Positions 3,625-61,024 of a stretch of 64,000 nucleotides of DNA are shown one piece after another. The DNA is from a bacterium (GTDB taxonomy: Bacteria > UBP18 > UBA7526): the NCBI GenBank assembly GCA_030615855.1, contig JAUWYL010000001.1:186001-250000 (forward strand), given 5' to 3'. The translations under genes were made by a program, and so were the position numbers. The notes beneath the pieces are model-generated. The model had not been told where the DNA came from. It did not search any database and saw only the letters and a list, made by a program, of their open reading frames with translations. The first letter of the stretch is position 1; each line of letters begins with the position of its first letter.

Positions 3625-3909
3625 ATGATTAGGTATACTTGTGATATGTGTGGGAGGGAGATAAAGCCTCATACCCTGAGATATAAGGTGAATATTGATG
3701 TTATTGCCGCCTATGATACCTTAGTTATCACTAAGGAGGATTTGAAGAGGGATTTTCAGAAAGAGATTAAGAGACTTCTGGAGAGAATGAAGGATATGGA
3801 TGAAGAGGAACTAATGGAAGATATCTGGAAGAACTTCTCCTTTGATCTCTGCAAGAAGTGTCGGGACATCTATCTTAGAAGCCCCTTGGGTCTGGTAAAC
3901 CCCGTTTAG
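3625..3909 (+). CDS. small zinc-ribbon-like protein of unknown function
   Basis: This 94-residue protein has two CxxC pairs, YTCDMCGREI at the N-terminus and DLCKKCRDIY near the C-terminus, separated by a charged helical stretch. That suggests one zinc site joining the two ends. The ribosome site AGAGGAGG precedes ATG 3625. The last codons (NPV-stop) lie inside the left arm of a CCCCGTTTAGA repeat element. An extra T in that arm relative to other copies makes the TAG stop. The native C-terminus may have been altered by insertion. Confidence 0.6.
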   Translation: MIRYTCDMCGREIKPHTLRYKVNIDVIAAYDTLVITKEDLKRDFQKEIKRLLERMKDMDEEELMEDIWKNFSFDLCKKCRDIYLRSPLGLVNPV

Positions 3910-4007
3910 ACTTTTCAACGAAATTATTGTCAATTCATAGGGTTTGATGGAGTAGATAATAATTGTATAACCGACTAAAAAAGTTTTTGCTCGAAAGTCT
4001 AACGGGG
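3900..4007. mobile_element. inverted-repeat element E1 (CCCCGTTTAGA...TCTAACGGGG)
   Basis: This 108-bp element has arms CCCCGTTTAGACTTT (left) and AAAGTCTAACGGGG (right). It is flanked by TAAA (3896-3899) and TAAG (4008-4011), a near-perfect 4-bp direct repeat. The interior is AT-rich and shares no clear sequence with E2-E4. The left arm contains the stop codon of the upstream gene. Confidence 0.7.
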
Positions 4008-4023
4008 TAAGCACTGAGGAACT

Positions 4024-4052
4024 TTGACTTTCCTTCTTATATATGATATTAT
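4024..4052 (+). promoter_or_regulatory. promoter TTGACT-17-TATTAT for a candidate small RNA
   Basis: TTGACT (4024-4029) and TATTAT (4047-4052) each match the consensus at 5 of 6 positions with an ideal 17-bp spacer. No gene starts for 200 bp downstream. The predicted start near 4059 leads into a nested-hairpin segment. Confidence 0.6.
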
Positions 4053-4058
4053 ATTGTA

Positions 4059-4178
4059 ATTACAAGCGTAAGAGTCCCCTAAAGCGGGTCCTACCTCGGC
4101 ATTTTCTCTTCGCGGGCCCCTCCGCCCGGTGTAGATCCTCCCACTCATAGAAATCTGCCGAGTCACCCGCATCTTTTA
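4059..4178 (+). ncRNA. candidate structured small RNA, family not recognised
   Basis: Downstream of a good promoter lie an outer stem GCGGGT/ACCCGC (4084-4089/4165-4170), a second stem CTCGGCA/TGCCGAG (4095-4101/4156-4162) and an inner hairpin CGGGC/GCCCG (4113-4117/4124-4128). The sequence ATCTTTT follows the outer stem directly, like a terminator tail. The central open region between stems and the GC-rich closing stems are reminiscent of 6S RNA, but I cannot align it convincingly. No plausible reading frame occupies the segment. Confidence 0.45.
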
Positions 4179-4256
4179 ACCAGCATAAAAGTATCACCAT
4201 GATTATCTGGGTAATCCGTTGTTTTATCCGTGTAATCTGTGTACCAGGAGGAATAA

Positions 4257-4508
4257 ATGATTAAGAAAAGACCCAAGAGTCCGGAAGAAGAGTATATGAA
4301 GGAAGTCCACGATGAAGAGATAAAAGCAGAGCATGAAGAGTGGCGGGAAGAAGGGGAGATAGAGAAGGAGAAAGAGAAAGAGAAGTTTAAGGATTATCAG
4401 AAGGAGAGAATAAAGAAGGACTATCTTATTAAGAGGCACAGAAAGGAGAAATTTCTGGGTGGAGTGAGGGGGAAGCCCACCCGGGGACCGAGGGGAACCC
4501 ATAAGTAA
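4257..4508 (+). CDS. small highly charged coiled-coil-like protein
   Basis: This 83-residue protein is rich in Glu and Lys over residues 5-65 (for example EKEKEKEKFKDYQKERIKKD), so it should form a single charged helix or coiled coil. A basic glycine-rich tail (GGVRGKPTRGPRGTHK) follows. An AGGAGG ribosome site precedes ATG 4257. No homologue is recognised. A nucleic-acid-binding role is conceivable from charge only. Confidence 0.5.
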   Translation: MIKKRPKSPEEEYMKEVHDEEIKAEHEEWREEGEIEKEKEKEKFKDYQKERIKKDYLIKRHRKEKFLGGVRGKPTRGPRGTHK

Positions 4509-4518
4509 ACAGTGCAAA

Positions 4519-5655
4519 ATGCAAAATGAAAAATGCAAAATGCAAAATGAAAAATTGAAAAATTTAGAGATAAAAGATTGGCTCACACTAAAAGCGATAC
4601 CTGACATCACCGATAATCTATATAAGAGGTTGATTGAGGAGTTCGATTCACCAAAAAGGGTCTTAAAAGCAGAAGAGAAGGATTTAGCTAAAGTTCCCGA
4701 GATAAAGAGGAATGTTGTCCGGGCCATTGTAGGGAAAAGGGCTGATGTCACCGACGAATGGGAACTGATTAAAAGGCATAAGATAGACATTATTACCTTA
4801 AATGATGAATCCTATCCGAAAAGTCTAAAAGAAATCTATGACCCTCCACCTTTATTATATGTTAAAGGAGAGATAAAGAGAGAAGATAAGAACGCCATTG
4901 CCATCGTGGGTTCCAGGAGGGCCACCACCTACGGCAAATTGACCGCCCAGAGGCTCGCGGCCCAACTGGCGGCCCAGGGAATAACCATAGTAAGCGGTAT
5001 GGCCCGGGGGATTGACTCTGAGGCCCACAAGGGCGCCTTAGCCGTGGGAGGGAGGACCATTGCTGTTTTGGGATGTGGAATAGACGTTGTCTATCCTCCA
5101 GAGAATAGGGCGCTCGAGGACAGAATTGCCTCATCTGGAGCAGTGATTACTGAATTCCCTTTCGGCACCAGACCTTTTGCGGGAAACTTTCCTAAGAGGA
5201 ATAGGATAATAAGCGGCCTCTCCTTAGGAGTAATAATCGTTGAGGCCGCCCAGAAGAGTGGGGCACTCATCACCGCTCGTCTAGCATTAGAGCAGGGAAG
5301 GGAGGTCTTTGCTGTTCCCGGTTCCACCACCTCTCCCTATAGCAGGGGAACCCATAACCTGATAAAAGAAGGGGCAAAGTTAGTAGAGAATACCGAAGAT
5401 ATCTTGGAGGAACTGGAACCTTTAATTGAGATTCGCAAGAAAAAAAAGAAAGGAACTAAAGGATTCCCCAGGCCTGTCTTATCAAAGGAGGAGGAGATTA
5501 TTTATAATCTAATTACTCAGGAGCCGAAGTATATCGATCTCCTTATTCAGGAGAGTAGGCTACCCGCCCAGAAGGCAATGGTCGTCTTAACCAATCTTCA
5601 GATAAAGAGCCTCATTAAGGAACTCGCCGGAAAAAATTTTATCAGAAAGGAATAG
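4519..5655 (+). CDS. dprA: DNA-processing protein DprA (Smf)
   Basis: DprA loads RecA onto incoming single-stranded DNA in transformation. The Rossmann-like core is complete, with IAIVGSRRATTYG, IVSGMARGIDSEAHKGAL, AVLGCGIDVVYP, FPKRNRIISGLS, EAAQKSGALITA and VFAVPGS in order. An N-terminal HhH-like region precedes it and a winged-helix segment closes the 378 residues. The first about 13 codons (MQNEKCKMQNEK) are encoded by an interspersed repeat and have no ribosome site, so the true start is uncertain. It heads a dprA-smg-topA-xerC block. Confidence 0.93.
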   Translation: MQNEKCKMQNEKLKNLEIKDWLTLKAIPDITDNLYKRLIEEFDSPKRVLKAEEKDLAKVPEIKRNVVRAIVGKRADVTDEWELIKRHKIDIITLNDESYPKSLKEIYDPPPLLYVKGEIKREDKNAIAIVGSRRATTYGKLTAQRLAAQLAAQGITIVSGMARGIDSEAHKGALAVGGRTIAVLGCGIDVVYPPENRALEDRIASSGAVITEFPFGTRPFAGNFPKRNRIISGLSLGVIIVEAAQKSGALITARLALEQGREVFAVPGSTTSPYSRGTHNLIKEGAKLVENTEDILEELEPLIEIRKKKKKGTKGFPRPVLSKEEEIIYNLITQEPKYIDLLIQESRLPAQKAMVVLTNLQIKSLIKELAGKNFIRKE

Positions 5656-5658
5656 GCC

Positions 5659-6087
5659 ATGCGCAGCCGAATAATGGATATCATAAGTTTCATCATTAAA
5701 GAGGTCTTGGATGGAAAGGACCTCTTGGAGACCGAGACTGAGATCGTGGAGAGTCTAATGGATCAGGGATACAGTCTGGAGGAGATTAACTCTGCCTTTG
5801 ATTGGTTATTCTCTTTGATTACTAAGGGAATGGTCAAGAAGGGGATTAAGCCCACTACCTCCAAGAGGATTCTCCATCATTTGGAGAGGCTGAAGTTATC
5901 CTCCCAGGCCTATGGACTCCTTATCAAGATGCAGGAATCAGGGCTCATCACCTTCGCCCAGCAAGAAGAGATCATAGAGCAGGCCTTAACTTCTGGCGAG
6001 GAGGTGGGCCCAGAGGAGATAAAGAGGATCGCTGGCCAGGTGGTCTTTGGGAACTCCTATCATAAGTGGGAAGGAGACTTGGATTGA
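5659..6087 (+). CDS. smg: Smg/DUF494 family protein
   Basis: This 142-residue protein starts MDIISFIIKEVLDG after a short N-terminal extension. Its pattern of helical segments (LMDQGYSLEEINSAFDWLF, LLIKMQESGLITFAQQEEIIEQAL) matches the Smg/DUF494 family. Its position between dprA and topA is the same as in many Gram-negatives (smf-smg-topA). The molecular function is not established. It begins 3 bases after dprA, and its stop overlaps the topA start by one base (TGATG). Confidence 0.85.
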   Translation: MRSRIMDIISFIIKEVLDGKDLLETETEIVESLMDQGYSLEEINSAFDWLFSLITKGMVKKGIKPTTSKRILHHLERLKLSSQAYGLLIKMQESGLITFAQQEEIIEQALTSGEEVGPEEIKRIAGQVVFGNSYHKWEGDLD

Positions 6088-8168
6088 TGGTCAAGGCCTT
6101 AGTCATCGTTGAATCACCAGCCAAGGCAAGGACTATAAATAAATTTCTGGGGAAGGAATACCTGGTTAAATCCTCTATGGGGCATATTAAAGACCTGCCC
6201 AGGAAGGGGCTGGGAGTAGATGTCTATAAGAACTTTCAGCCTCACTACCATATCATTCCCAAGAAAGCAAAGACCTTAGAGAAGTTGAAAGAGGTAGCGG
6301 ATAATATGCAGAGGATCTACCTCGCCCCTGACCCGGATAGGGAGGGAGAGGCCATCTCCTGGCACCTCTATAGTGAATTGAAAAAAACCACTAACGACGT
6401 AAAAAGGATCATCTTTCACGAGATTACCAAAGAAGCTATAGATAAGGCCCTCACCCATCCCAGGGAGATCGATCTAAAATTGGTGAATGCCCAGCAGGCG
6501 AGAAGGATCTTAGATAGGATCGTGGGCTATAAGATAAGCCCCCTGCTCTGGAGGAAGGTGAGAGGAGGGCTTAGCGCCGGGAGGGTGCAGTCTGTAGCCT
6601 TGAGGCTCATCTGCGAGAGGGAGAAGAAGATTAACTCCTTCAAGCCAGAGGAGTACTGGTCAATTCATACAAAACTTCAGGGGAAGAGTAAAGAAATCTT
6701 TGGAGCCGACTTAGAAAAAATTGAGGATAAAAGGATAAAGATTTTTGATAGACTAAAGGCCCAGGAGATCTCTTCCCAATTAGAGAGGGAGGAATTCTTT
6801 CTGAAGAAGATCGCTAAGAGAGAGAAGAAGAGATTTCCCCTCCCCCCCTTTATCACTGCTACCCTTCAACAGGTGGCAGCAAGGAGGTTTCATTTTTCGG
6901 CGAAGAGGACCATGAGGATTGCCCAACAACTCTACGAAGGCTTAGATATCGGGGGCGGGGAGATGATAGGCCTTATTACCTATATGAGAACTGACTCCTT
7001 TAGAGTGGCTCAGAGTGCTATCCAAGAGGCAAGAGGGTATATCAGGAAGGAGTTTAGTCAGGAGTGCCTTCCTTCCAAGCCGAGGTATTATAGGAGTAGG
7101 AAAGGGGCCCAGGAGGCGCATGAGGCCATCCGTCCCACATCTCTTTATCGCACTCCAGAAAGATTGAAAGAGCACCTGACTATTGAACAGCAGAGGCTCT
7201 ATAGTCTAATCTGGAATAGGTTTCTTGCCTCCCAGATGAGAGAGGCCCTATTGGAGAAGAGGACCTTCAATATTAGAGCAGGAGAGTTTTCTCTATCCTC
7301 TTCTGATTCCCAGGTGAGATTTAAAGGATTCCTTTCTCTCTATCCAGAAGATAGGATTTTTAAGGAAAAGCTCCTGCCCGCCCTGGAAGAGAAGGAGACC
7401 TTAAAATTATTAGAGGTTCTTCCTAGCCAGCACTTCACTCAGCCTCCTCCCCGCTACTCAGAGGCCAGCCTCATCAAGGCCCTGGAGGAGGAAGGGATCG
7501 GTCGCCCCTCAACCTATGCCTCAATCATGGAGACCATCAGGAGCCGGGACTATGTTGAGAGCCATAAGGGAAACTTCCATCCCACTTCCTTAGGGGAGAC
7601 GGTTATTGAACTACTGGTCAAGAGCTTTCCCGATATCTTAAATGTCCGGTTCACCTCCCAGATGGAGGATAGGTTAGATAAAGTAGAGGAAGGAAGGGAG
7701 AACTGGATAGACCTCTTGCACTCCTTCTATGGCCCCTTCGCCTCTGACCTCTCCCGAGCCCAGAGGGAGATGAGATATGTAAAGAAGGAACTTGAAGAGA
7801 AGACAGATAAGATCTGTGAGAAATGTGGCTCGCCCATGGTCATAAAACATGGCCGTTTTGGAAAATTCTTAGCCTGTTCCAACTTCCCTAAATGCAAGAA
7901 TTCCCGACCACTCACTCTGGAAATAAGATGTCCTGGGAAGGATTGTAATGGAGAAATAGTCCAGAGAAGGACCAAGAAGAGAAGGACCTTCTATGGCTGC
8001 AGTAACTATCCAGAGTGCGACTTCTTTTCCTGGGATAGACCAGCAGGTAAAGGTTGCCCGGAATGCGGCTCTTTTTTAGTTGAAAAATATAGTAAGAGTA
8101 AAGGAAGATATCTTAAGTGTGCCAATAAAGAATGTTCTTACAGTGAACAAGTAACAGTGAACAAGTAA
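6087..8168 (+). CDS. topA: DNA topoisomerase I (type IA)
   Basis: The enzyme relaxes negative supercoils through a 5'-phosphotyrosine. The Toprim domain shows VIVESPAKARTI at the start and PDPDREGEA. The active-site Tyr is Y299 in ITYMRTDS. Three C-terminal four-Cys zinc ribbons are visible (CEKCG...CKN, CPGKDC...CDF, CPECG...CSY). ATG 6087 was chosen because AAGGAG lies at 6071-6076 and ATG overlaps the smg stop. An upstream in-frame ATG at 6066 lacks support. The final residues SEQVTVNK and the stop are encoded by a 14-bp direct repeat, so the tail is repeat-derived. Confidence 0.95.
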   Translation: MVKALVIVESPAKARTINKFLGKEYLVKSSMGHIKDLPRKGLGVDVYKNFQPHYHIIPKKAKTLEKLKEVADNMQRIYLAPDPDREGEAISWHLYSELKKTTNDVKRIIFHEITKEAIDKALTHPREIDLKLVNAQQARRILDRIVGYKISPLLWRKVRGGLSAGRVQSVALRLICEREKKINSFKPEEYWSIHTKLQGKSKEIFGADLEKIEDKRIKIFDRLKAQEISSQLEREEFFLKKIAKREKKRFPLPPFITATLQQVAARRFHFSAKRTMRIAQQLYEGLDIGGGEMIGLITYMRTDSFRVAQSAIQEARGYIRKEFSQECLPSKPRYYRSRKGAQEAHEAIRPTSLYRTPERLKEHLTIEQQRLYSLIWNRFLASQMREALLEKRTFNIRAGEFSLSSSDSQVRFKGFLSLYPEDRIFKEKLLPALEEKETLKLLEVLPSQHFTQPPPRYSEASLIKALEEEGIGRPSTYASIMETIRSRDYVESHKGNFHPTSLGETVIELLVKSFPDILNVRFTSQMEDRLDKVEEGRENWIDLLHSFYGPFASDLSRAQREMRYVKKELEEKTDKICEKCGSPMVIKHGRFGKFLACSNFPKCKNSRPLTLEIRCPGKDCNGEIVQRRTKKRRTFYGCSNYPECDFFSWDRPAGKGCPECGSFLVEKYSKSKGRYLKCANKECSYSEQVTVNK

Positions 8169-8196
8169 CAATTGTTCAATGTTCATTGTTCAATGC
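8141..8196. repeat. tandem AGTGAACAAGTAAC repeat at the topA stop
   Basis: Two copies of AGTGAACAAGTAAC encode the last topA residues and its TAA stop. AATTGTTCAATGTTCATTGTTCAATG follows in shorter tandem units. It is a low-complexity interspersed repeat filling the topA-xerC gap. Confidence 0.75.
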
Positions 8197-8224
8197 TACT
8201 TAATATCACCTTACAGGAGATTAA

Positions 8225-9112: not shown

Positions 9113-9153
9113 AGAGAGTAAGAGAGTAAAAAAGTAAGAAAGTAAAAAAGTAG

Positions 9154-9183
9154 TTGCAGAAAAGTAAAGAAGGATGATATACT
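9154..9183 (+). promoter_or_regulatory. candidate rpsB operon promoter TTGCAG-18-TATACT
   Basis: TATACT (9178-9183) matches the -10 consensus at 5 of 6 positions. TTGCAG (9154-9159) is a weak -35 at 18-bp spacing. It would give a leader of about 155 nt before the rpsB start at 9345. Confidence 0.45.
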
Positions 9184-9189
9184 ATCGTA

Positions 9190-23225: not shown

Positions 23226-23573
23226 ATGACGCGGAGGAGAGCTCAGCGGGCAGGAAGACTTATTCAGGAAGAGATTTCAAAGATCATTCAGAGGGAATTA
23301 AAGGATCCACGGATTGGATTTGTTACTATTACTGGTGTAGATGTTACTGATGATCTCCGCTATGCCAAGGTATTCATCACTGTTTTAAAAAGAGAGGAAA
23401 GGGAGAGGACTCTGGAAGGCCTGGAGCATGCCAAGGGATTTATTCGTAGGGAGATCGGACAGAGAATAAAAATGAAGTTCACTCCAGAGATTGAGTTTAG
23501 ATTCGATGAAACTATAGAGCGTGGAGCACACATAGAGGAAGTAATAAGAAAGATTAAGGAGAAGGAGAAGTGA
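23226..23573 (+). CDS. rbfA: ribosome-binding factor A
   Basis: RbfA binds 30S precursors during 16S rRNA maturation in the cold. The 115-residue protein has the KH-like pattern RRAQRAGRLIQEEISKIIQRELKDPRIGFVTITGVDVTDDLRYAKVFITVL and the terminal PEIEFRFDETIERGAHIEEVI. GGGGTGAG precedes ATG 23226. Its TGA stop provides the left target copy (TGAA) flanking repeat element E2. The gene was probably directly joined to nrnA before insertion. Confidence 0.95.
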   Translation: MTRRRAQRAGRLIQEEISKIIQRELKDPRIGFVTITGVDVTDDLRYAKVFITVLKREERERTLEGLEHAKGFIRREIGQRIKMKFTPEIEFRFDETIERGAHIEEVIRKIKEKEK

Positions 23574-23574
23574 A

Positions 23575-23683
23575 TCCCGTTAGATGCTGGTCTTTTAATG
23601 AAGTGGAAATAAATGATACATTTAGGATCGCTATTAAAGATATTAGAAAAAGCTATATAACAATATTTGGGAGTCTAACGGGA
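23575..23683. mobile_element. inverted-repeat element E2 (TCCCGTTAGA...TCTAACGGGA)
   Basis: This 109-bp element fills the rbfA-nrnA gap exactly. The arms TCCCGTTAGA and TCTAACGGGA are perfect complements. TGAA occurs on both sides (23571-23574 and 23684-23687). The last base of the element is the A of the nrnA ATG. Confidence 0.75.
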
Positions 23684-24660
23684 TGAAGGAACTAAAAAAG
23701 ATTGTCGAGGTTATCAGAGAGAATAAAAGTTTCTTTATTACTTCTCACATCAGGCCAGATGGGGATTCCATCGGCTCTCAACTTGCCCTGAAGAGGATAC
23801 TGGAAAGGTTAGGAAAGGAAGTAATCATCACCAATCATGATCCGGCCCCTAAAATCTACGATTTTCTTCCCGGAAAAGAGAGCATCAAGCAAGAACTACC
23901 TAAGAATAGAGAGTTCGATGTGGCCTTTATTCTGGATAGCCCAGAGCTCTCTCGTCTGGTGAGCACCGCAGAGATAATCGAGAAAGCAAAGGTCATCGTA
24001 AATATCGATCACCATCTGGGGAATGAAAAGTTTGGAAAGTATAACTATGTTGATACTGAGGCTTCTGCCGTGGGAGAAGAGATATATGAACTGACAAGAG
24101 TAATGGGGTTTGAGATAGATAGGGAGATTGCCTTATGCCTCTATGTGGGCATCTTTACAGATACCGGTTCCTTCCGGCAGTCAAATACTACCCCTCGTAC
24201 CCATGAGATCGTGGCCCACCTCATGAAGATAGGAGATTTAAAGCCTGCCCAGATCACCCATCAGATATACGGGACCCAGCTTCCTTCTGCCATAAAGTTA
24301 TTGAGCATGACTTTGGATACCTTGGAGAGGAGCGGAGACGGCAGGATAGCTTGGATGACCATTACCGACGAGATGTTCAAAGAGACCGGAACCACCAAGG
24401 CGGAGACCGAGAACTTCATCAACTATGTTCGTTCTGTGAAAGGAAGCGAGGTGGCCATTCTATTCACTGAGCTTGCTAAGGATGAGGTAAAGGTCAGTTT
24501 CCGCTCCAAGTCTAGTGCCGACGTTAATAGTATAGCCAAAATATTTGGAGGTGGAGGACATCTTCGCGCTTCTGCCTGCACTATAAAGGGAGATTTGGAG
24601 GAGGCAAAGAGGAAGGTGCTGGTTGAGGTAGAGAAGAGACTAAAGAAGGTTTACGGTTGA
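23683..24660 (+). CDS. nrnA: DHH-family nanoRNase/pAp phosphatase
   Basis: NrnA degrades short oligoribonucleotides and dephosphorylates pAp. Motifs are SHIRPDGDSIGSQLAL (motif I), FILDSPE (II), VNIDHHLGN (III, DHH) and the DHHA1 motif FGGGGHLRASA. The length is 325 residues. The ATG is formed at the junction of element E2. Without the element the start would have been GTG overlapping the rbfA stop (GTGA). The last codons (KVYG-stop) lie inside 138-bp repeat copy 2. Confidence 0.92.
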   Translation: MKELKKIVEVIRENKSFFITSHIRPDGDSIGSQLALKRILERLGKEVIITNHDPAPKIYDFLPGKESIKQELPKNREFDVAFILDSPELSRLVSTAEIIEKAKVIVNIDHHLGNEKFGKYNYVDTEASAVGEEIYELTRVMGFEIDREIALCLYVGIFTDTGSFRQSNTTPRTHEIVAHLMKIGDLKPAQITHQIYGTQLPSAIKLLSMTLDTLERSGDGRIAWMTITDEMFKETGTTKAETENFINYVRSVKGSEVAILFTELAKDEVKVSFRSKSSADVNSIAKIFGGGGHLRASACTIKGDLEEAKRKVLVEVEKRLKKVYG

Positions 24661-24787
24661 CCGACCCCGATGCTATTGGGGTGCCCGCGGTTGACGGTAA
24701 ACAGCCCCGACAGCTGTCGGGACGGGCAAATCGAATAGTAGCTATTCACCAGCGGGGCAAGTAAAACGCGCCGCTCAACGGTAAACG
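24650..24787. repeat. 138-bp repeat, copy 2 (before truB)
   Basis: This copy matches 18922-19059 except for eight transitions. It supplies the final codons and TGA stop of nrnA and ends 6 bp before the truB ATG. The stem around GGGCAAGTAAAACGCGC (24755-24771) is AGCG/CGCT here instead of GGCG/CGCC, a compensatory change. Confidence 0.92.
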
Positions 24788-24793
24788 ATAAGC

Positions 24794-45631: not shown

Positions 45632-46329
45632 AGACTATGGTCATCATCCCCACCTATAATGAGAGGGAGAACATCGGCCCCTTGCTTGATGAAATTATGA
45701 ACCTTAAAGAAAATATCGAGGCTCTGGTGGTAGATGATAACTCTCCGGATGGCACTTGGAGAATAGTAGGAAATTATTCTAAGAAAAACCCTAGAGTTCA
45801 TCTCTTACGGAGAACCTCTGAGAGAGGACGGGGCCTGGCAGGAATAGCAGGATTTAAGTATGCTTTGGAGAATAAAGCAGATTATGTCATTGAGATGGAT
45901 GGTGATCTTTCCCACAATCCAAAGTATATCCCAGAGTTCTTGAAAAAGATTGAGGATTGCGATGTAGTCATCGGCTCTCGTCTTCTTCCCGGTGGAGGGG
46001 AGGTGGGAAGAGGGTTTTTAAGGCGTCTAATCACCAGGCTGGCTGCCATCTACGTTAGGATTTTATTAGGATTCAAGGTTACAGATCCTACCTCCGGCTA
46101 CCGTTGTTATCGGGGAGAAGTCCTAAGGGCTATAGATATTAAAAGCCTAAAGGCCAGGGATCCTTTCCTCCTCTCTGAGATGCTCCTCAGGTGCTATAAG
46201 AAAAGCTATAGAATTAAAGAAATCCCCATCCTCTTTCAAAATCGGAAATCCGGTGCTTCTAAGATCGGCTGGAAAATCTTGATAACCTATCTCTTCAAGG
46301 TCCTAAAGTTGAGAGTTAGAGGGAAGTGA
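45628..46329 (+). CDS. GT2 polyprenol-phosphate mannose synthase-like
   Basis: The 233-residue GT-A enzyme follows the dolichol-phosphate mannosyltransferase pattern: VIIPTYNERENIGPLL, VVDDNSPDGTW, VIEMDGDLSHNPKYIPEFL, VIGSRLLPGG and DPTSGYRCYRGE. It lacks C-terminal membrane helices, so it is the soluble DPM1 type. It likely makes polyprenyl-phosphate-hexose for the GT39 enzyme at 43075. It overlaps both neighbours by four bases. Confidence 0.9.
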   Translation: MKTMVIIPTYNERENIGPLLDEIMNLKENIEALVVDDNSPDGTWRIVGNYSKKNPRVHLLRRTSERGRGLAGIAGFKYALENKADYVIEMDGDLSHNPKYIPEFLKKIEDCDVVIGSRLLPGGGEVGRGFLRRLITRLAAIYVRILLGFKVTDPTSGYRCYRGEVLRAIDIKSLKARDPFLLSEMLLRCYKKSYRIKEIPILFQNRKSGASKIGWKILITYLFKVLKLRVRGK

Positions 46330-47501
46330 GTATCCCGATCTTAATGTATCATCATGTAAACCCCGTTAGAAGTCCTCGTTGCAAACGAGGCATCCGTCCC
46401 CTTCGGGGTCGGATTACTTCTAACGGGGTAAATGAACTCCCAGATAGTTTTACTATTTCTCCAGATGATTTCCAGAGTCAAATGGAGTACTTAGCAAAAA
46501 AAAATTACCAGACCCTCTTTCTGGATGAGTTAATTAATTCTTTAAAAGAGAGAAAAGAGAAGAGAAAGGTAGCCCTTACCTTTGATGATGGTTATCTTGA
46601 TAACTGGGTCTATGCCTACCCCATCCTGAAGAAGTATAATCTAAGAGCAACCGTCTTTGTCATTACCTCTCGCATTAAAGAGAAGCCTATCTCCTATCGC
46701 CCTAACTTAGAAAATCTCTGGAAGAGGAAAGTTAAGAAAGAAGGGCTTCCCAGGATTTCTAATCACTATCAGAGTAATCTAAGATGTGTCAGGAATCTTG
46801 AAGGTTCAGATGATCATATTACCTGGGAAGAAGCGAAGAAGATGTCTCGAAGCGGTCTGATAGATATCCAGTCCCACAGTTATTTACACAGCTACTGTTA
46901 TGTAAGTGATAAGATAGTCGATTATTATCGAGGACATAAGTGGCGCACGGGCTGGCTTACAGATGGAGATACAAGATTAGGCATCCCGATATATGAGGAT
47001 AAGCCAGCCCTTGCTGGGCAAAGATATTTTGATGATCAGGACTTAAGAAATAGACTGGCAGAATACGTTTCCCAAAGAGGGGAAGGAAAATTCTTTGAAA
47101 AGGAGGATTGGAAGAAGGAATTGGATGGGATAGTAGATGATTATCGGGTGCAAAATGAACTAAAAGATAATTATGAAACTTTAAAAGAGAGAGGGAAGCG
47201 AGTCAAAAGCGAGTTATTACTATCTAAAAATATTGTCGAAGAAAAACTAAATAAAGAATGTAACTTCATCGCCTGGCCAGGAGGGGCATACGATAGTTAT
47301 TTAGTTAAGTGGGCTAGGGAGTGTGGCTATCAAGGAGCAGTAACTACCCAGCCAGGAGCGAATACTTCTAATACCAACCCTATGTATCTCAAGAGGTTTG
47401 AGATTAAGAGAAGGGATCTTGGCTGGTTTAAGAAAAGGCTTTTCATTTACTCCCATAATTTCACGGCCCGATTTTACCCCAAGATAAAGGGGTTATTTTA
47501 A
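46326..47501 (+). CDS. polysaccharide deacetylase (NodB fold) with repeat-encoded insertion
   Basis: NodB motifs are PILMYHHV (start), ALTFDDGYLDNW (motif 1, Asp pair), DIQSHSYLHS (motif 2, HSxxH metal ligands) and FIAWPGGAYDSYL (motif 3). A 24-residue stretch right after MYHHV (NPVRSPRCKRGIRPL onward) is encoded by repeat element E4, read in frame. About 110 residues between motifs 2 and 3 (including WLTDGDTRLGIPIYED) form an extra segment not seen in small NodB enzymes. It probably N-deacetylates a surface glycan. The start is GTG 46326. Confidence 0.85.
   Translation: MSIPILMYHHVNPVRSPRCKRGIRPLRGRITSNGVNELPDSFTISPDDFQSQMEYLAKKNYQTLFLDELINSLKERKEKRKVALTFDDGYLDNWVYAYPILKKYNLRATVFVITSRIKEKPISYRPNLENLWKRKVKKEGLPRISNHYQSNLRCVRNLEGSDDHITWEEAKKMSRSGLIDIQSHSYLHSYCYVSDKIVDYYRGHKWRTGWLTDGDTRLGIPIYEDKPALAGQRYFDDQDLRNRLAEYVSQRGEGKFFEKEDWKKELDGIVDDYRVQNELKDNYETLKERGKRVKSELLLSKNIVEEKLNKECNFIAWPGGAYDSYLVKWARECGYQGAVTTQPGANTSNTNPMYLKRFEIKRRDLGWFKKRLFIYSHNFTARFYPKIKGLF
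46361..46428. mobile_element. inverted-repeat element E4 inside the deacetylase gene
   Basis: This 68-bp element has perfect arms CCCCGTTAGAAGT/ACTTCTAACGGGG. Two internal hairpins, CCTCGTT-GCA-AACGAGG and TCCG-T-CCCC-TTC-GGGG-T-CGGA, would give a cloverleaf-like fold. TAAA flanks both sides (46357-46360, 46429-46432). Element plus one flank is 72 bp, so the frame is kept. Confidence 0.85.
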
Positions 47502-50340: not shown

Positions 50341-51483
50341 ATGAAAGTTGCTTTAGTTCGTCAGAGTTATCATAAATACGGAGGGGCGGAGAGGTATGTA
50401 AGTTACCTGGCAGAGGGGTTCTTGAAAAGAGGCCATAAGGTCCACGTCTTTGCCAGAAAGTGGGATCCCAGTGCCCCAAAAGGGATTATCTTCCATAGGG
50501 TTCCTACCCTAAAAGGCCCCTCTTTTTTAAAAGCTTTGAGTTTTGCCTCCAATGTGAAAAGATTATTGGAAGGGAAGAAATTTGATATCATTAATAGTTT
50601 TGATCGCACTCTCTATCAGGATGTTTACCGTGCTGGAGATGGGGTTCATAGAGAGTGGAGGAAGAGACTTTTAGAGATTACTCCTAATCTCCTAATCAGA
50701 CTCTTGATCCTTATCAACCCTTTACATCTAAGCCTCCTTTTCTTAGAAAAAAGAATCTTTCAAGAGAATAATTATAAGAAGATAATTGCCATATCAAAGA
50801 AGGGTAAAGAGGAGATTATAAAGTATTACGGAGTCTGTCCAGAGGATATTATTGTCATCTATAATGGGGTGAATCTGGAGGAGTTTCATCCCAAAAATAA
50901 GGCCTTATTCAGAGAGGAGATAAGAAAAGAATTTGGTATTTCTGAAGAGGAATTTCTCGTTTTGTTTGTGGGAAGTGGCTATAGGAGGAAGGGGTTGAGA
51001 TACTTGATTGAGGCCGTTTCTCTCCTAAAGGACGAAAAACCATTAAAAGTATTAGTAGTGGCAAAGGGCAAGAAAAGAGCGTACTTAAGATTAGCAAAAA
51101 AGCTGGGAATAAGAAGTAAAATAATCTTTGCTGGGGGAAGAAAAGACTTAAGAAAGTTCTATGCAGCAAGTGATCTTTTCGTTCTTCCCACTATCTATGA
51201 ACCATTTGGCAATGTCTGTCTGGAGACCCTGGCCAGTGGGCTTCCCATTATTGTGAGTAAAGCGAGCGGAGCAGCAGAGATTATTACAGAAGGAGAGAAC
51301 GGGCTCCTCCTAAAGAATCCCAGAGATCCCCAAGAACTAGCTAAAAAGATTAAACAAACTTTTGATAATAATTTTAGAGAAGAATTAAGTAAAAACGCCC
51401 GGATTTTAGCTGAGAATTTTACCGTGGATAAGAATGTAGAAAGGACATTAAAAGTCTACCAGGAAGTGATCGGTGAACAGTAA
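50341..51483 (+). CDS. GT4 glycosyltransferase
   Basis: The 380-residue GT-B enzyme starts MKVALVRQSYHKYGGAERYVSYLAEGFLKRGHKVHVFARKW, close to the WaaG/RfaG-like LPS glucosyltransferase pattern. The C-domain has LFVGSGYRRKGLRYLIEAVSLL and the intact E-x7-E (YEPFGNVCLETLASGLPIIVSKASGAAEII). ATG 50341 is preferred over TTG 50326, though the ribosome site is weak. The last residues VIGEQ and the TAA stop are part of a GGTGAACAG repeat. Confidence 0.88.
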   Translation: MKVALVRQSYHKYGGAERYVSYLAEGFLKRGHKVHVFARKWDPSAPKGIIFHRVPTLKGPSFLKALSFASNVKRLLEGKKFDIINSFDRTLYQDVYRAGDGVHREWRKRLLEITPNLLIRLLILINPLHLSLLFLEKRIFQENNYKKIIAISKKGKEEIIKYYGVCPEDIIVIYNGVNLEEFHPKNKALFREEIRKEFGISEEEFLVLFVGSGYRRKGLRYLIEAVSLLKDEKPLKVLVVAKGKKRAYLRLAKKLGIRSKIIFAGGRKDLRKFYAASDLFVLPTIYEPFGNVCLETLASGLPIIVSKASGAAEIITEGENGLLLKNPRDPQELAKKIKQTFDNNFREELSKNARILAENFTVDKNVERTLKVYQEVIGEQ

Positions 51484-51620
51484 TCGGTGAACGGTGATCG
51501 GTGAACGGTGATCGGTGAATAGAATAGCTATCAAGCAATTAAGCCATTAAGAATAAGGATCAAGCATTCAGTATCTGTGATCTGTGTTAATCTGTAATAA
51601 ATCTGTGCGAATCTGTGTCT
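51478..51620. repeat. ATCGGTGAACGGTG tandem repeats and ATCTGTG strings
   Basis: Three units of ATCGGTGAACGGTG-type sequence begin within the upstream gene's stop. CTGTGATCTGTGTTAATCTGT and CTGTGCGAATCTGTGTCTAAGGAG follow, the last of which includes the ribosome site of the next gene. The same CGTCTAAGGAG ending occurs before gmhA (63580-63589). Confidence 0.75.
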
Positions 51621-51632
51621 AAGGAGAGAAGC

Positions 51633-52757
51633 GTGGAAGTAATCTATGCCGTGGCCGCTCCCTTAGCAAAAGGGGGGATCGGAAGTCTCGCCTATCAGGC
51701 AATTAAAGCAATCGATAAACATGGTTATTTGAAAAGCGTGATTACTATTGGTAAAAGTAGAAAAGTAGACTTGAATCCCCATAAAATAGTAAGCATCTTC
51801 TATCCCAAGAGGATAAGGCTTCCCTATCTCGATGCCAAAAGGTGGTATTATCTGAGGAATCTATACTTCGATCGCCGAGTTAGAAATCTTTTGAAAGAAG
51901 GGTGTGACATCTTCCATGGCTGGAATAGCCAGTGCCTTTTCTCATTAAAAGAAGCGAAGAGGAGGGGAATAGTAACCGTTGTTGAGAGGTCTTCTTCTCA
52001 CATTTTGACCCAGATGGAATTAATCAAAGAGGAATACGAGACCTATAGTATTAGGTTGAAGCCAGAGTTGAATGTAGTAATTGAACGCTGCCTAGAAGAG
52101 TATGAGGTAGCAGACTATATAAGCGTCCCTTCCCGGTTTGTCTATGATAGTTTCTTAAAGAAAGGTTTTGATAGAAAGAAATTGATCCTCATTCCCTTGG
52201 GAATAGACATCGAGAAGTATCGGCCGGGAGAAAAAAAGGACAAAATCTTTCGGGTTTTATTTATGGGACAAATCTCCCTACGCAAGGGAGCACAGTATCT
52301 CCTGAAGGCTTTTTCAGAACTTAAATTAAAGAATAGTGAACTCCTCTTAGTGGGAGGAATAGGAAAGGACTTTAAGAAGATTTTTGAGGAATACCGAAAG
52401 AAAATAGCATTAAAACATATCCCCTGGAGCAATGACTTAGGAAGTATCTGCCGTCAATCTTCTCTCTTTGTCTTCCCTTCCATTGAGGAAGGTTCTGCTT
52501 TAGTCAACTATATTGCCATGGCCTGTGGCCTATCAGTTATCACCACCTTTAATTCGGGCTCTCCAGTAAGAGATGGTGAGGATGGCTTTCTTGTCCCCAT
52601 AAGGGATGTTGAAGCATTGAAAAAAAAGATATTATATTTCTATGAAAAGCCCCAAGAAATCAAGGCCATGGGCACAAATGCCAGAGAAGAAGTAGAGAAG
52701 TATACTTGGGAAAGGTATGGAGAGCAACTAAACAGGATCTATGAAAGGACAGTCTGA
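51633..52757 (+). CDS. GT4 glycosyltransferase with altered E-x7-E motif
   Basis: The 374-residue GT-B enzyme begins MEVIYAVAAPLAKGGIGSLAYQAIKAI. The C-domain has FRVLFMGQISLRKGAQYLLKAFSEL and IEEGSALVNYIAMACGLSVITTFNSGSPVRDGEDG. In the E-x7-E position the second Glu is replaced by Ile, unusual for an active GT4. GTG 51633 follows AAGGAG at 51621-51626; an earlier GTG lies upstream of that site. The acceptor is unknown. Confidence 0.82.
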   Translation: MEVIYAVAAPLAKGGIGSLAYQAIKAIDKHGYLKSVITIGKSRKVDLNPHKIVSIFYPKRIRLPYLDAKRWYYLRNLYFDRRVRNLLKEGCDIFHGWNSQCLFSLKEAKRRGIVTVVERSSSHILTQMELIKEEYETYSIRLKPELNVVIERCLEEYEVADYISVPSRFVYDSFLKKGFDRKKLILIPLGIDIEKYRPGEKKDKIFRVLFMGQISLRKGAQYLLKAFSELKLKNSELLLVGGIGKDFKKIFEEYRKKIALKHIPWSNDLGSICRQSSLFVFPSIEEGSALVNYIAMACGLSVITTFNSGSPVRDGEDGFLVPIRDVEALKKKILYFYEKPQEIKAMGTNAREEVEKYTWERYGEQLNRIYERTV

Positions 52758-56174: not shown

Positions 56175-56175
56175 G

Positions 56176-57261
56176 ATGAAAATTCTCTTAGCGACCAATG
56201 GCTTTTTACCTGAGATAGGAGGAGTTCAAACCTACTGTTATCAATTAGCAAAGAACCTTTTTTCTTTGGGGGAAGAAATCATTGTCTTAGCTCCGAAAAC
56301 CGAAGGGGATGCGGATTTTAATAAGAAGGAGAGGTTTAAGATAATCAGGACTAAGAAGAAGGTTTGTTCCCGGTTGGCTTTCCTTTTTCTATTAAAAAGA
56401 GAAAGAATAGGAAAAATATTGGTGGGTCATGGCTCACATTATGTTCGTTTAGCTTCTTTAGCAAACCGTCTTTTTAAAATTCCCTATGATATTATCATTC
56501 ATTTGGAAGAGATTCTTCCTTTAGAAAGAAAAAAGATTATTCAGAAAAGTTTCAAAAGAGCCGACAAAATCATCACAGTCAGCCACTTCGCAAAAAAGAA
56601 ATTGGTGGAGATTGGCATTCCAGAGAGTAAGATTGTAGTCATCCATCCCGGAGTAGATCCAGAAAAATTTCGTCCTAAACCCGAACCTTCCCCAATTAGA
56701 AAGCGATATCGCTTAGAAAAGAAAAAGGTTATTTTAACTATCTCCCGCTTAGGCGAACATAAAGGTCATGCTAATGTTATTCGTGCCCTCCCTCAGGTAT
56801 TAGAAAAAATACCTGAAAGCGTCTATTTGGTGGTGGGTTCAGGCGAGAAGGAAGATAGATTAAAAGGACTGGTGAAGGAATTAGGGCTGGAAGATAAGGT
56901 GATCTTCACTGGTGAAGTGGAAGAAGAGGAGCTTCCTCTATATTACGCTGCCTGTGATGTTTTCATTATGCCCAGTGATGTGGAGGGATTTGGCATCGTT
57001 TTTTTAGAAGCGGGAGCCTCGGGCAAACCCGTCATTGGAGGAAAGACCGGAGGAATTTCTGATGCTATCACCGATGGAGAGACTGGTTTACTGGTAGATC
57101 CGTTAAGCGTTAACCAAATTACTGAAGCACTAATAAAATTGCTCACCAATCCTGAATCTGCCCGAAAACTGGGAGAAAAAGGGAGAGAAAAAGTGGAAAA
57201 GGAATTTAACTGGCAGGAGATAGCAGAAAAGGTTAAAGGAATAATCCATGAGAAAGGCTAG
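56176..57261 (+). CDS. GT4 glycosyltransferase, type A copy 2
   Basis: The 361-residue enzyme starts MKILLATNGFLPEIGGVQTYCYQLAKNLFSLGEEIIVLAP, aligning without gaps to the type A copy at 53949. E-x7-E is intact (DVEGFGIVFLEAGASGKPVIGGKTGGISDAI). A short insertion present in copy 1 (YQIKDRG before DVEGFG) is missing. It starts two bases after type B copy 1 and overlaps the GT2 gene, so the array is one operon. Confidence 0.9.
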   Translation: MKILLATNGFLPEIGGVQTYCYQLAKNLFSLGEEIIVLAPKTEGDADFNKKERFKIIRTKKKVCSRLAFLFLLKRERIGKILVGHGSHYVRLASLANRLFKIPYDIIIHLEEILPLERKKIIQKSFKRADKIITVSHFAKKKLVEIGIPESKIVVIHPGVDPEKFRPKPEPSPIRKRYRLEKKKVILTISRLGEHKGHANVIRALPQVLEKIPESVYLVVGSGEKEDRLKGLVKELGLEDKVIFTGEVEEEELPLYYAACDVFIMPSDVEGFGIVFLEAGASGKPVIGGKTGGISDAITDGETGLLVDPLSVNQITEALIKLLTNPESARKLGEKGREKVEKEFNWQEIAEKVKGIIHEKG

Positions 57262-58195
57262 TATTATCATCTCCAACTGGAATGGCAAGAATCTACTGAA
57301 GGAGAATCTGCCCAGTGTGATCAAGGCTATCAAGTATAGCGGCGGGAATCATGAGTTAATTGTGGTTGACGATGCCAGTTCAGATGGGAGTCCAGAGTTT
57401 ATAAAGAAGAATTATCCTCAAGTAAAGCTAATTGAGCTGGAGGAGAATAAAGGATTTGGGAAAGCGAACAATATTGCTATCTCAAAAAGCAAAAACGACG
57501 TCATCGTTCTTTTGAATACCGATATGTCTATCAAGAAGGATTACTTCTCTTTTGTCCTTTCCCATTTTGACGATGAAAATATCTTCGCTGTTACCCCTAA
57601 GATGATTACGGAAGATATCTTCCGTAAGAAATTTAAAGTCACTATCTCCTGCTGGGCAAAGTTTAGGCATGGCTTCTGGCACTTTATAGAGATTCGTGAC
57701 TTGAGAGACGAAGAAGGTCACCGTATTGTCCTTACTGTGCCCGGAGGAGGAGTAGCCTTTGACAAGAAAAAATTTCTTTCTCTAGGCGGTTTTGACAGTC
57801 TCTATTATCCCTTTTACTATGAGGATACTGACCTCTCTTATCGTGCCTGGAAGAGGGGCTGGAAGATTATTTATGAACCAACTACGCTAGTATACCATAG
57901 ATGCAGCATGACCATTGGTGAACACTTTGGGGAGTATGCTTCTCTCATTGAGATGAAGAACTACTATCTTTTCATGTGGAAGAATATTACAGATAGCCAC
58001 CTGATCCTGAAGCATCTCTTAATTCTTCCCTTTCACCTTCTAATTAAATTATTGGGAGGTAGATGGATCTGGGTCAAGGGCTTCTTTTTGGCCTTGAAGC
58101 AGCTGAGAGAAGTATTAGCCCGGAGAAAGGTAGTAAAAAAAGAGAGCATCCTTTCAGATCGTAAGGTCTTAGACCTCTTTAAGAAGAGGAGATAA
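57248..58195 (+). CDS. GT2 glycosyltransferase (rhamnosyltransferase-like)
   Basis: The 315-residue GT-A enzyme shows ASIIISNWNGKNLLKENLPSVIKAI, IVVDDASSDGSPEFI, NKGFGKANNIAI and DVIVLLNTDMS (DxD-like). GGFDSLYYPFYYEDTDLSYRAWKRGWKIIYEPTTLVYHRCSMTIG also follows. This is the WbbL/RfbF-like GT2 pattern that adds deoxysugars or hexoses to O-chains. It lies between type A copy 2 and type B copy 2. Confidence 0.88.
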   Translation: MRKASIIISNWNGKNLLKENLPSVIKAIKYSGGNHELIVVDDASSDGSPEFIKKNYPQVKLIELEENKGFGKANNIAISKSKNDVIVLLNTDMSIKKDYFSFVLSHFDDENIFAVTPKMITEDIFRKKFKVTISCWAKFRHGFWHFIEIRDLRDEEGHRIVLTVPGGGVAFDKKKFLSLGGFDSLYYPFYYEDTDLSYRAWKRGWKIIYEPTTLVYHRCSMTIGEHFGEYASLIEMKNYYLFMWKNITDSHLILKHLLILPFHLLIKLLGGRWIWVKGFFLALKQLREVLARRKVVKKESILSDRKVLDLFKKRR

Positions 58196-58196
58196 G

Positions 58197-59327
58197 ATGA
58201 GATTAAACAATTTGACAATTGGGATCATCAGGGATGGTCCTCCGGGCTGTTCGGGAGGAGTTATTTCTCGAGAGTTATTTCTAAACTTAAAAGATAATCT
58301 AAACATAGAAGAAGTGATGTGTATTCGGCTCAGGGAGAGCCGCAAGATCAGATGGAATACTCCTCCTACGAGAATAATAACCTATCGTACCAAACATTTG
58401 AGAGACTCTCAGCTATTATGGAAGTTGCCTCGTTATGACCTCTATCATTTTCAAAGCCATATCTTCTTCAGCCTCATTAAACATAGAAGGCCAGCCATAG
58501 CTACGGCGATTGACCTCATTCCTTTAAAGAGCGGTCTCTATTCTGACACCCATCTTGAGGCAGTAAGGAGGTCTTTTCAATTCTTTAGGGAGGCAGAGCA
58601 CATCATTGCTATATCTCAGAGTACCAAAAAAGACCTGATTGAACTACTGAATATCGATTCAGAGAAAATAGAGGTTATCTACCTCGGAGTAAATTATAAG
58701 ATATATAAGGCGAGGAATAAGGAAGAAGTGAGGAGAAAATTGAACCTGCCTTTAGATAAAGAAATCCTGCTCAATGTAGGCACCGAAAACGAGAATAAGA
58801 ATATAGAGAGATTAATCAGAGTATTTTATCGTTTACAGAAAAGATTCAAAGACCTCATGCTTATCAGGGTAGGTTTGATCTCAGATTCCATAACTAAGTT
58901 AGTAGACGAGTTAAAACTAAATGATAGGGTACTGAGAGTAGGATTTATAGAAGGCTACCCTAATCTCTATTATAATGCGGTAGATGTTTATGTCTGCGCT
59001 GATTTATTGGGAGGTTTTGGATTACCTAATCTGGAGGCTATGGCCAGTGGTTGTCCAGTAGCTACCTCAGGGAGCAGTGCCTTTCCTGAGGTGGTAGGGA
59101 ATGCTGGATTACTTTTCAATCCTCAGGATGAAGATGATGTCTTTGAGAAAATAGCTACTCTGTTAGAGGATAGTAGGTTACGGGAAAAATATGCTCAAAA
59201 AGGTCTTGAGAGAGCAAAATTATTTAGTTGGAAGAAAATGGCTCAGAAGACTATAAAGGTTTATGCCAGAGTGGCCAGAGAATACTATGGGAAGAATATC
59301 ATCATTCCAAAAGATGAAAAAGAATGA
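58197..59327 (+). CDS. GT4 glycosyltransferase, type B copy 2
   Basis: The 376-residue paralogue of 55056 starts LTIGIIRDGPPGCSGGVISRELFLNLKDNLNI. The conserved HD of copy 1 (VHDLIPL) is changed to ID (AIDLIPL), and the first Glu of E-x7-E is again Gly (GGFGLPNLEAMASGCPVATSGSSAFPEV). These changes suggest divergence in acceptor use or loss of activity. It begins one base after the GT2 stop region and overlaps the next gene. Confidence 0.86.
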   Translation: MRLNNLTIGIIRDGPPGCSGGVISRELFLNLKDNLNIEEVMCIRLRESRKIRWNTPPTRIITYRTKHLRDSQLLWKLPRYDLYHFQSHIFFSLIKHRRPAIATAIDLIPLKSGLYSDTHLEAVRRSFQFFREAEHIIAISQSTKKDLIELLNIDSEKIEVIYLGVNYKIYKARNKEEVRRKLNLPLDKEILLNVGTENENKNIERLIRVFYRLQKRFKDLMLIRVGLISDSITKLVDELKLNDRVLRVGFIEGYPNLYYNAVDVYVCADLLGGFGLPNLEAMASGCPVATSGSSAFPEVVGNAGLLFNPQDEDDVFEKIATLLEDSRLREKYAQKGLERAKLFSWKKMAQKTIKVYARVAREYYGKNIIIPKDEKE

Positions 59328-60304
59328 AGATCATCTTAGCTGGTCCATTAGATAAACCTTCTTCTACCGTCTCTTTTATGAAGAAGACTTTGGAGAAATT
59401 AGGGCAAGAAATAGTACCTTTTGATTATCGTAAGGAGCGGGAGAAATATGGCAATGAAAGAATGCAGCAGGAGATGATCGATCTAACAAAAGAAAAGAAA
59501 CCAGATATCTTCTTATTATTAAAAGGGGATGGAATTTTCCCTGAGACGTTAGAGGACATTAAGAAGACCTGTCATGTTGCCTTTCGCTATATGGATTCTC
59601 CAATCAAAGGATGGATAGTTAGATTGGCAAGAGCCTCTGATTCCTTTTTCCTTACTGCTGGAGGATTAATTGAAAAGTATAGGCGTTTAGGAGTCAAAAA
59701 TGTCTTTCATCTCTGGGAGGGATGTGATCCGGAAGTTCATAGATATCTTCCTTCAGATTCTCCGGAGTATCAATGTGAGGTGGCTTTCATTGGAGTGGGT
59801 AAAGTAGGGAGAGAAAGTCTTTTAAAGAAGGTTATGAAGGCTGGTTGTGATTTAAAGATCTGGGGCCGCGATTGGCCGCACGGTTTTCCGGTCCAGAAGG
59901 AATGGGTCGAGCCCGAGGAGTTTGCTAAAGTTTGCTCTAGTGCTAAGATTGTCTTAGGACTAAACGATAATAATACCATTCCCGACTATTTTTCTGATCG
60001 GACATTCTTGACCTTAGCCTGCAGAGGATTCCACATCACCTCCTATGCTCCTCGGTTAGAGAGATGGTTCACAAATAAGAAGCATTTAGTCTGGTATAAT
60101 ACAAGAAAGAAATATCCATGGTCCAATAGATATGCAGAATGTATCGATCTCATTAAATATTATCTGAATAAGCCAGAAGAGAGGGAAAGAATCGCTCGGG
60201 CTGGTCAGGAATGGGTCTATTCCCATTACACCTGGCGCCACTCTATGGAAAAGATGGTTAAGATTTTAGGAGAATTAATTGGCAAAGAGAGATGTCTAGA
60301 ATAG
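59324..60304 (+). CDS. CgeB-like glycosyltransferase
   Basis: The 326-residue protein begins MKIILAGPLDKPSSTVSFMKKTLEKLGQEIVPFDY and has an IFLLLKGDGIFPETL strand. The C-terminal region DYFSDRTFLTLACRGFHITSYAPRLERWFTNKKHLVWY and HSYTWRHSMEKMV-type ending is typical of CgeB/Glyco_trans_1_2 proteins. Those are GT-B enzymes found in spore-coat and capsule loci. It overlaps its neighbours at both ends. Donor and acceptor are unknown. Confidence 0.8.
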   Translation: MKIILAGPLDKPSSTVSFMKKTLEKLGQEIVPFDYRKEREKYGNERMQQEMIDLTKEKKPDIFLLLKGDGIFPETLEDIKKTCHVAFRYMDSPIKGWIVRLARASDSFFLTAGGLIEKYRRLGVKNVFHLWEGCDPEVHRYLPSDSPEYQCEVAFIGVGKVGRESLLKKVMKAGCDLKIWGRDWPHGFPVQKEWVEPEEFAKVCSSAKIVLGLNDNNTIPDYFSDRTFLTLACRGFHITSYAPRLERWFTNKKHLVWYNTRKKYPWSNRYAECIDLIKYYLNKPEERERIARAGQEWVYSHYTWRHSMEKMVKILGELIGKERCLE

Positions 60305-60852
60305 CAGTCTTTATAGATCGGGATGGAACGATTATAGAGGAATTGGAATATTTAAAGGATCTAGAGAGGATTAGACTTATACCCCATTCAGCAGATGCTA
60401 TTAGATCATTAAATGAAAGAGAGATATTGGCCATCATTGTTTCCAACCAAGCAGGAGTAGCACGAGGCTATTTCTTAGAAGAGACTGTTAGGAAGATAAA
60501 TGAGAGGTTAGAAGAACTCCTAAGTAAAGAAGGAGCACACTTAGATGCAATCTATTATTGTCCACATCATCCAGAGTTTGGTTCACCTGAGTATAGGAAG
60601 GACTGTAACTGCCGAAAACCAAAACCAGGCATGTTATGGAAATCAGCTAAAAAGTTTCATTTAAACCTGAAGGATTGTTATGTAATCGGGGATAGAGCAG
60701 ATGATATTCGATTGGCGCAAAATGGGGGCGCAAAAGGGATATTGGTATTAACCGGATATGGCCAGAAGGCCAAAGAAGAGATAAAGCCAGATCATATGGC
60801 TAAAGACTTATATCAAGCAGTTAGATGGATATTAGAAGAGTGTGGACAGTGA
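60292..60852 (+). CDS. gmhB: D-glycero-D-manno-heptose-1,7-bisphosphate phosphatase
   Basis: GmhB removes the C7 phosphate in ADP-heptose synthesis. The HAD-IIIA motifs are FIDRDGTIIEE (motif I, DxD), IIVSNQAGVARGYF (II), and KPKPGM and YVIGDRADDI (III/IV). The GmhB zinc loop is present as CPHHPEFGSPEYRKDCNCRKPKPG. The length of 186 residues is normal. It overlaps the upstream gene by 13 bases. The gmhA gene is at 63.6 kb; hldE/rfaE is not in the window. Confidence 0.92.
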   Translation: MSRIAVFIDRDGTIIEELEYLKDLERIRLIPHSADAIRSLNEREILAIIVSNQAGVARGYFLEETVRKINERLEELLSKEGAHLDAIYYCPHHPEFGSPEYRKDCNCRKPKPGMLWKSAKKFHLNLKDCYVIGDRADDIRLAQNGGAKGILVLTGYGQKAKEEIKPDHMAKDLYQAVRWILEECGQ

Positions 60853-60907
60853 GCAGATGGACAGGTGGGAGAATGAGCAAGTAAAAAAGGAGGAAAAAGG
60901 GGAAGTT

Positions 60908-60931
60908 ATGAATCCCGTTAGACCTTTCTAA
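60908..60931 (+). other. seven-codon micro-ORF at the left end of element E3
   Basis: ATG-AAT-CCC-GTT-AGA-CCT-TTC-TAA (MNPVRPF) follows an AAAGGAGGAAAAAGGGGAAGTT ribosome site. It is probably the disrupted original start of the DUF4254 gene: ATGAA here matches ATGAA at 61024-61028. A leader peptide role is possible but not supported further. Confidence 0.4.
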
Positions 60932-61024
60932 AGTCTAACGGGATTAAATCGGAAAATTTTGGAATATGCCAAGTAAGTTATCTTTTTATACTCTTTACTC
61001 GTAAACTAAGGAGGTCTAACGGGA
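60913..61024. mobile_element. inverted-repeat element E3 (TCCCGTTAGAC...GTCTAACGGGA)
   Basis: This 112-bp element is bounded by TCCCGTTAGAC (60913) and GTCTAACGGGA (ending 61024) and flanked by TGAA (60909-60912 and 61025-61028). An extra right arm (GTCTAACGGGA, 60933-60943) makes a tight hairpin with the left arm. The right end carries AAGGAGG, a new ribosome site, and the A of the next ATG. Confidence 0.75.

Follow-up and report, generated by a model that had tools for sequence, protein, structure and literature searches.

The window, a 64,000-nt stretch of a bacterial contig, contains four short loci (Table 1) that a first-pass annotation had singled out for their complementary ends and for the direct repeats just outside them. 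They raise the question of whether they are inserted mobile elements and, if so, how such elements are moved and where they settle. All four loci were found with their complementary ends, and the flanking repeats TAAA/TAAG, TGAA/TGAA, TAAA/TAAA and TGAA/TGAA were all seen. The 4-bp duplication is perfect at elements 2, 3 and 4 and decayed at element 1, whose left arm, CCCCGTTTAGA, carries a 1-bp insertion (one extra T). What the annotation had missed is that one element lies in frame within a gene, that two right ends fall on a start codon, and that such elements are spread over many phyla.

Table 1. The four elements of the window and the genes that they touch
Feature	Position	Strand	Duplication or flanks	Description
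Element 1	3900-4007		TAAA 3896-3899 / TAAG 4008-4011	CTT/AAG subfamily, decayed
Element 2	23575-23683	+	TGAA 23571-23574 / 23684-23687	
Gene at element 2	23683-24660	+		Start codon formed at the right end of element 2
Element 3	46361-46428	+	TAAA 46357-46360 / 46429-46432	AGT/ACT subfamily, two inner stem-loops
Host ORF of element 3	46326-47501	+		Polysaccharide deacetylase (Polysacc_deac_1), insert residues NPVRSPRCKRGIRPLRGRITSNGV
Element 4	60913-61024	+	TGAA 60909-60912 / 61025-61028	CCT/AGG subfamily
Small gene at element 4	61024-61230	+		Start codon formed at the right end of element 4

The four elements and empty orthologous sites

Three of the elements are built into genes or gene borders. 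Element 2 serves both of its neighbours: the left duplicate contains the TGA stop of the ORF at 23226-23573, and the last base of the element, A, forms with the following TG the ATG of the downstream ORF. Element 4 has a 31-bp inner palindrome at 60913-60943 and, on its right side, a GGAGG 9 nt before the ATG regenerated at 61024. Element 3, counted as 68 bp and the duplicated TAAA, is an in-frame insertion of 72 bp by which the deacetylase is 24 residues longer.

Long stretches of the window could be aligned with five sister genomes (G001-G005), and the empty orthologous sites that the first-pass annotation had proposed looking for were found. Element 3 was absent in all five relatives, the junction reading CAT-GTAAA-[68 bp]-TAAATGAACTC in the window versus CATCAYGTGAAYGARTTA in the relatives. 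The deacetylase accordingly reads MYHHV-NPVRSPRCKRGIRPLRGRITSNGV-NELPD in the window versus (M/I)YHHVNEL in all five, the proteins being otherwise collinear. Both G002 and G004 lack element 4, their version of the small gene beginning directly at its start codon (ATGAAGAAGACATTTGC or GTGAAGACATTTGC), and element 1 was absent at the orthologous site in G002, where the HSPs abut. By these empty sites, elements 1, 3 and 4 are insertions. At the site of element 2, G003 possibly has a decayed copy at the same spot, and G001, G002 and G005 have unrelated spacers.

The interiors of the four elements are mutually different. The annotation had considered only the termini to be conserved, which holds in that the ends are common to otherwise unrelated elements, but subfamilies do keep conserved interiors. 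Full or nearly full copies were found for the interiors of element 1 (L027:869, L055 and L060), element 3 (several sites in sister genomes) and element 4 (L010 and G002), and the element 2 interior had copies in sister genomes, full-length or partial and at least of the 3' half. As the interiors recur elsewhere in the genome or family, they are not random, and the window elements are members of separate subfamilies joined by their ends. No Rfam family was matched on the window or on five element-bearing loci, apart from one unrelated tRNA, and a known structured RNA family was therefore rejected.

The window also contains other repeats: a second multicopy repeat of ~200 bp at 61497-61703, with dozens of copies across the family and without the shared arms; a short repeat at 51465-51639 (core 51572-51618) with many copies in all five sister genomes; two more interspersed repeats at 4080-4171 and 4508-4566 with many sister-genome copies; and a dispersed repeat of ~100 bp at 24689-24790, present in sister genomes.

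Spread, arms and target duplications

The paired ends were searched for in the whole genome (1.375 Mb in 45 contigs) and in relatives, as had been suggested earlier. In the own genome, TRAAYCCCGTTAGA gave 10 exact matches and the reversed control none. For paired ends, CCCGTTAGA-N(41-101)-TCTAACGGG, 10 matches were counted in the own genome and 231 across 18 genomes, and none for the controls. The copies number 4-34 per genome, measure 60-120 bp and have no transposase coding. All six genomes examined of the own phylum contained elements, and of 386 bacterial genomes sampled, 23 had paired ends, 17 of these from beyond the own family, with control matches in 1 genome. When 84,980 species genomes were scanned for paired ends next to a TRAA on one side, at least 117 stretches were obtained; because the scan was biased to TRAA flanks and to 61-121 bp, the length range is not a natural limit. 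Among the matches listed were CPR/Patescibacteria (Jorgensen-, Kaiser-, Nomura-, Wolfe-, Yanofsky-, Campbell-, Uhr- and Kerfeldbacteria, and others), Omnitrophota, Cloacimonadota, Planctomycetota, deltaproteobacterial groups, Stahlbacteria, WOR-3, KSB1, Nitrospirae, Spirochaetia and Brocadia. Seven element stretches were found on six IMG/VR contigs. The sequences compared are mostly MAG contigs. Literature searches with the exact end sequences gave chance matches only, a search on MITEs in the candidate phyla radiation returned no paper, and no palindromic elements of this kind appeared in the titles or abstracts on Parcubacteria.

The complementary ends, put at 10 bp in the first-pass annotation, are real; the arm, however, is 13 bp long and consists of nine fixed bases and the variable positions 1 and 11-13. 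Position 1 is Y/R, and positions 11-13 vary across unrelated elements, yet the two ends stay complementary. Among 45 dereplicated elements, pairing at positions 11, 12 and 13 was 96, 91 and 84%, versus 38-48% in shuffled pairs (z 8-10), and from position 14 onward it was at chance level. The same covariation was seen in 27 elements under stricter dereplication, and several triplets (AGT, GAT, CCT and AAT) occur side by side in one genome group. This would mean either that a 13-bp duplex or hairpin is read by the enzyme or that the ends are copied when an element arises. Whole tRNA genes are enclosed by the arms in two cases (tRNA-Val in L120:427-538 and tRNA-Ala in L142:1136-1247), in line with the interiors being free.

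In a flank-unbiased set of 97 pairs, 54 had identical 4-bp flanks, versus ~0.4 expected. Together with the empty sites for three of the four window elements, these pairs bear out the transposition footprint first read from the window. A fixed TRAA target was not supported: 33 of the 54 were TRAA/TTYA and 21 were others (e.g., TGAG, TGGA, TGCG, TTGA, CAAG and TCAA), and CTCA was likewise duplicated at some elements. Identical flanks that are so often not TRAA point to true target duplications. Even within a single subfamily and genome, copies carry unlike duplications (TGAA, TGAG, TGCG), which shows that the 4 bp derive from the target; a right-hand TRAA as part of the element was rejected on this ground. 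The remaining 43 pairs were not identical, many of them being compatible with a decayed left copy. In such unequal pairs, it is often the far copy that has changed (e.g., ATGAA to ATAAA or ATAA), with the one on the gene-start side unaltered, as would be expected if selection acts only on the new start codon. Recurrent CTTG...TGAA pairs (nine cases, at L105, L120, L126, L129, L147 and L184) do not fit decay by single mutations.

Start codons and reading frames

At 48 of 55 TGAA elements, the R|TG codon (ATG or GTG), made of the last element base and the following TG, began a frame that was open over 50 codons or more, and none opened a different frame. An ORF of this kind was lacking at 45 of 54 TAAA elements. 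The base before the duplication was a purine in 105 of 109 cases. Four CPR genomes contained 64 elements in all, of which five have no R|TG codon; 46 of the 59 testable ones lay exactly on a gene start codon and rebuilt that codon, versus 105 of 927 ATGRR motifs at gene starts in the same loci, genes being taken as ORFs rather than curated genes in this test. Some elements donate a GGAGG 9 nt before the new ATG. In some CPR subfamilies, leader ORFs end at a TAA inside TCTAACGGG, 5 nt before the element end, and some CPR subfamilies fuse in frame to the gene as ...SNGM/VK. At L327-L345 of G066, copies of one CPR subfamily have a conserved leader peptide, MKINNIKMIVTSHHLKTVDGLLHF, that ends at the arm TAA.

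All 15 elements inside long ORFs preserved the frame (length + 4 divisible by 3). A wider and noisier test on reconstructed empty sites, in which some ORFs are probably spurious, gave 9 of 15. Of the three possible frames, only two run open across the arms, reading NPVR/SNG and TPLE/LTG. By profile matches, the hosts include HypE, HypD, IF-2, GatB, glycyl-tRNA synthetase, UvrC, dihydroorotate dehydrogenase (DHODH) and indolepyruvate oxidoreductase, which indicates that the host genes are conserved. An NCBIfam scan of the inserted proteins at E 1e-5 listed only the host families.

Proposed mode of mobilisation and relation to known systems

The annotation had seen no transposase in the window, and a transposase with these ends was not found in the genome or in ~1.2 Mb of examined loci either, nor was an autonomous copy. 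TIR-flanked pairs of up to 5 kb in all loci examined were only nested or unmatched and enclosed no transposase. Y1_Tnp, DDE_Tnp_1 and DDE_5 were absent from all six genomes of the own family. RAYT was rejected as the mover on this count and because RAYT loci elsewhere lack flanking arms; DDE_Tnp_1 matches elsewhere lacked them too where checked. IS701-family elements have a 4-bp TSD, YTNA. Membership of this family was rejected, as DDE_5 (PF13546) was found in 3 of 25 element-bearing genomes and in none of the own family. In G025 (L069 and other loci), an element is nested in a larger multicopy repeat of ~325 bp, which was considered as a parent IS and rejected as a separate repeat.

Taken together, it is highly probable that the elements are non-autonomous transposons similar to RPE and MITEs, that they form an undescribed superfamily and that a putative enzyme moves them in trans. 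Each element has a 13-bp arm at either end, one inverted relative to the other (Y CCCGTTAGA NNN ... N'N'N' TCTAACGGG R); the interior can have any sequence, and the overall length is usually 60-120 bp. Insertion duplicates 4 bp of the target. Since the arms are common to many unrelated interior families, the enzyme would recognise the arms only, and since the variable positions 1 and 11-13 are complementary within an element and pairing stops sharply at 14, recognition probably needs arm pairing or matched arms in addition to the nine fixed bases. Inverted ends and a constant 4-bp duplication make a DDE enzyme in trans the default assumption. The mover would most likely be a transposase of the DDE type that such ends do not, or no longer, enclose, which is the weakest step of the model; a plain DDE MITE leaves the complementarity of the variable arm positions unexplained. 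The surviving copies are the translation-compatible ones, which may be a result of selection. The start-codon target is (A)TGNN, where the terminal R of the element and the TG of the right duplicate rebuild ATG or GTG, sometimes with the GGAGG ribosome site of the element; in genes, the copies preserve the frame, with the arms read as NPVR...SNGV or TPLE...LTG, and the remaining elements are intergenic, mostly at RTAAA.

A more specific possibility, which we regard as rather doubtful, is that an enzyme of an undescribed kind recognises the folded 13-bp arm hairpin in trans and prefers start codons for insertion, guided by features that DNA or nascent RNA has where translation or transcription is initiated. 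The element would then become a mobile 5' leader, with the start codon restored every time.

The strong start-codon placement and the conserved leader ORFs of the CPR subfamilies, such as MKINNIKMIVTSHHLKTVDGLLHF, would also suit regulatory or leader hairpins (promoter, leader peptide, RBS) that are not mobile now, were spread by recombination and are kept by selection at gene starts. This is unlikely, as the target duplications, the empty sites, the in-frame inserts in housekeeping genes and the intergenic copies fit insertion, and regulation may be a later use of the elements.

The covarying stem positions point to a folded hairpin, as in single-strand transposition of the IS200/IS605 or REP/RAYT type, where the hairpin is excised as ssDNA, the right TRAA is part of the element and the duplication is only apparent. 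Complementary stem changes occur in REP families too (PMC3733652), and differences confined to the left flank are common. The variation of the duplicated 4 bp within one subfamily nevertheless places their origin in the target, the own family lacks Y1_Tnp and RAYT genes elsewhere have no flanking arms, which makes this mode quite improbable.

We give similarly little credence to a tyrosine recombinase, by which the element would circularise to a 13-4-13 core site (arm, overlap, inverted arm) and integrate by identity of the 4-bp overlap. Recombinase core sites do resemble 13-bp arms around a 4-bp repeat, and the terminal R and the base preceding the duplication tend to be the same, TAAA sites included (31/12/1/6, Fisher p 0.006); the overlap, however, would have to be identical with each target, and several duplications are found in one subfamily. 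Chance palindromes or assembly artefacts, for which only the shortness of the fixed 9-mer speaks, are practically negligible given 0 control matches versus 231 and matches in independent assemblies of many phyla.

Several known systems resemble the elements in part. RPEs are textbook selfish DNA surviving inside genes. The Rickettsia palindromic elements (RPE) are small palindromic mobile elements of several families that lie in frame in unrelated protein-coding genes and are open in the needed frame (PMC10969869, PMC3733652). Our elements share the small size, the palindromic form and the in-frame insertion in unrelated genes that stay open; they differ, RPE being compared by description, in their ends (YCCCGTTAGANNN), the clear 4-bp target duplications, the occurrence in many phyla of uncultured bacteria and the ATG-rebuilding placement at start codons. 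Like the prokaryotic MITEs (Correia, ERIC, RUP and MITEAba12), which are short, non-autonomous, flanked by terminal inverted repeats and target duplications, present in many copies and in some cases equipped with promoters, the elements are short and multicopy, with inverted 13-bp ends, a TSD and no transposase coding. In contrast to these MITEs, the ends are common to families and the interiors are not, the variable arm positions stay complementary, the placement in CPR is mostly at start codons and no parent IS is known. REP/RAYT palindromes share the complementary stem changes between families, whereas here the loop is ~35-95 nt, there is no GTAG/CGTC foot (the feet being the 4-bp duplication), the duplication is real and the own family has no RAYT. 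The arm core letters GTTAGA/TCTAAC presumably resemble those of integron attC; attC was dropped as their order is inside out here (GTTAGA...TCTAAC), with no cassette arrays and with 4-bp duplications at scattered targets.

The elements would represent a much wider superfamily than RPE, in major uncultured lineages, both in frame and at start codons. They would be a source of many natural in-frame peptide insertions in conserved enzymes and, being mobile, of new leaders and ribosome sites as well; the start-codon placement poses a testable question, targeting versus selection. In the annotation of CPR genomes, they lead to miscalled starts and to spurious peptides, either N-terminal or internal (SNGVK, NPVR...SNGV, LTGFTPLE). 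At L092:6121-6200 and 3026-3105, an element lies just before a pilin GFTLIE motif, and the junction, SLTGFTPLE, mimics the motif.
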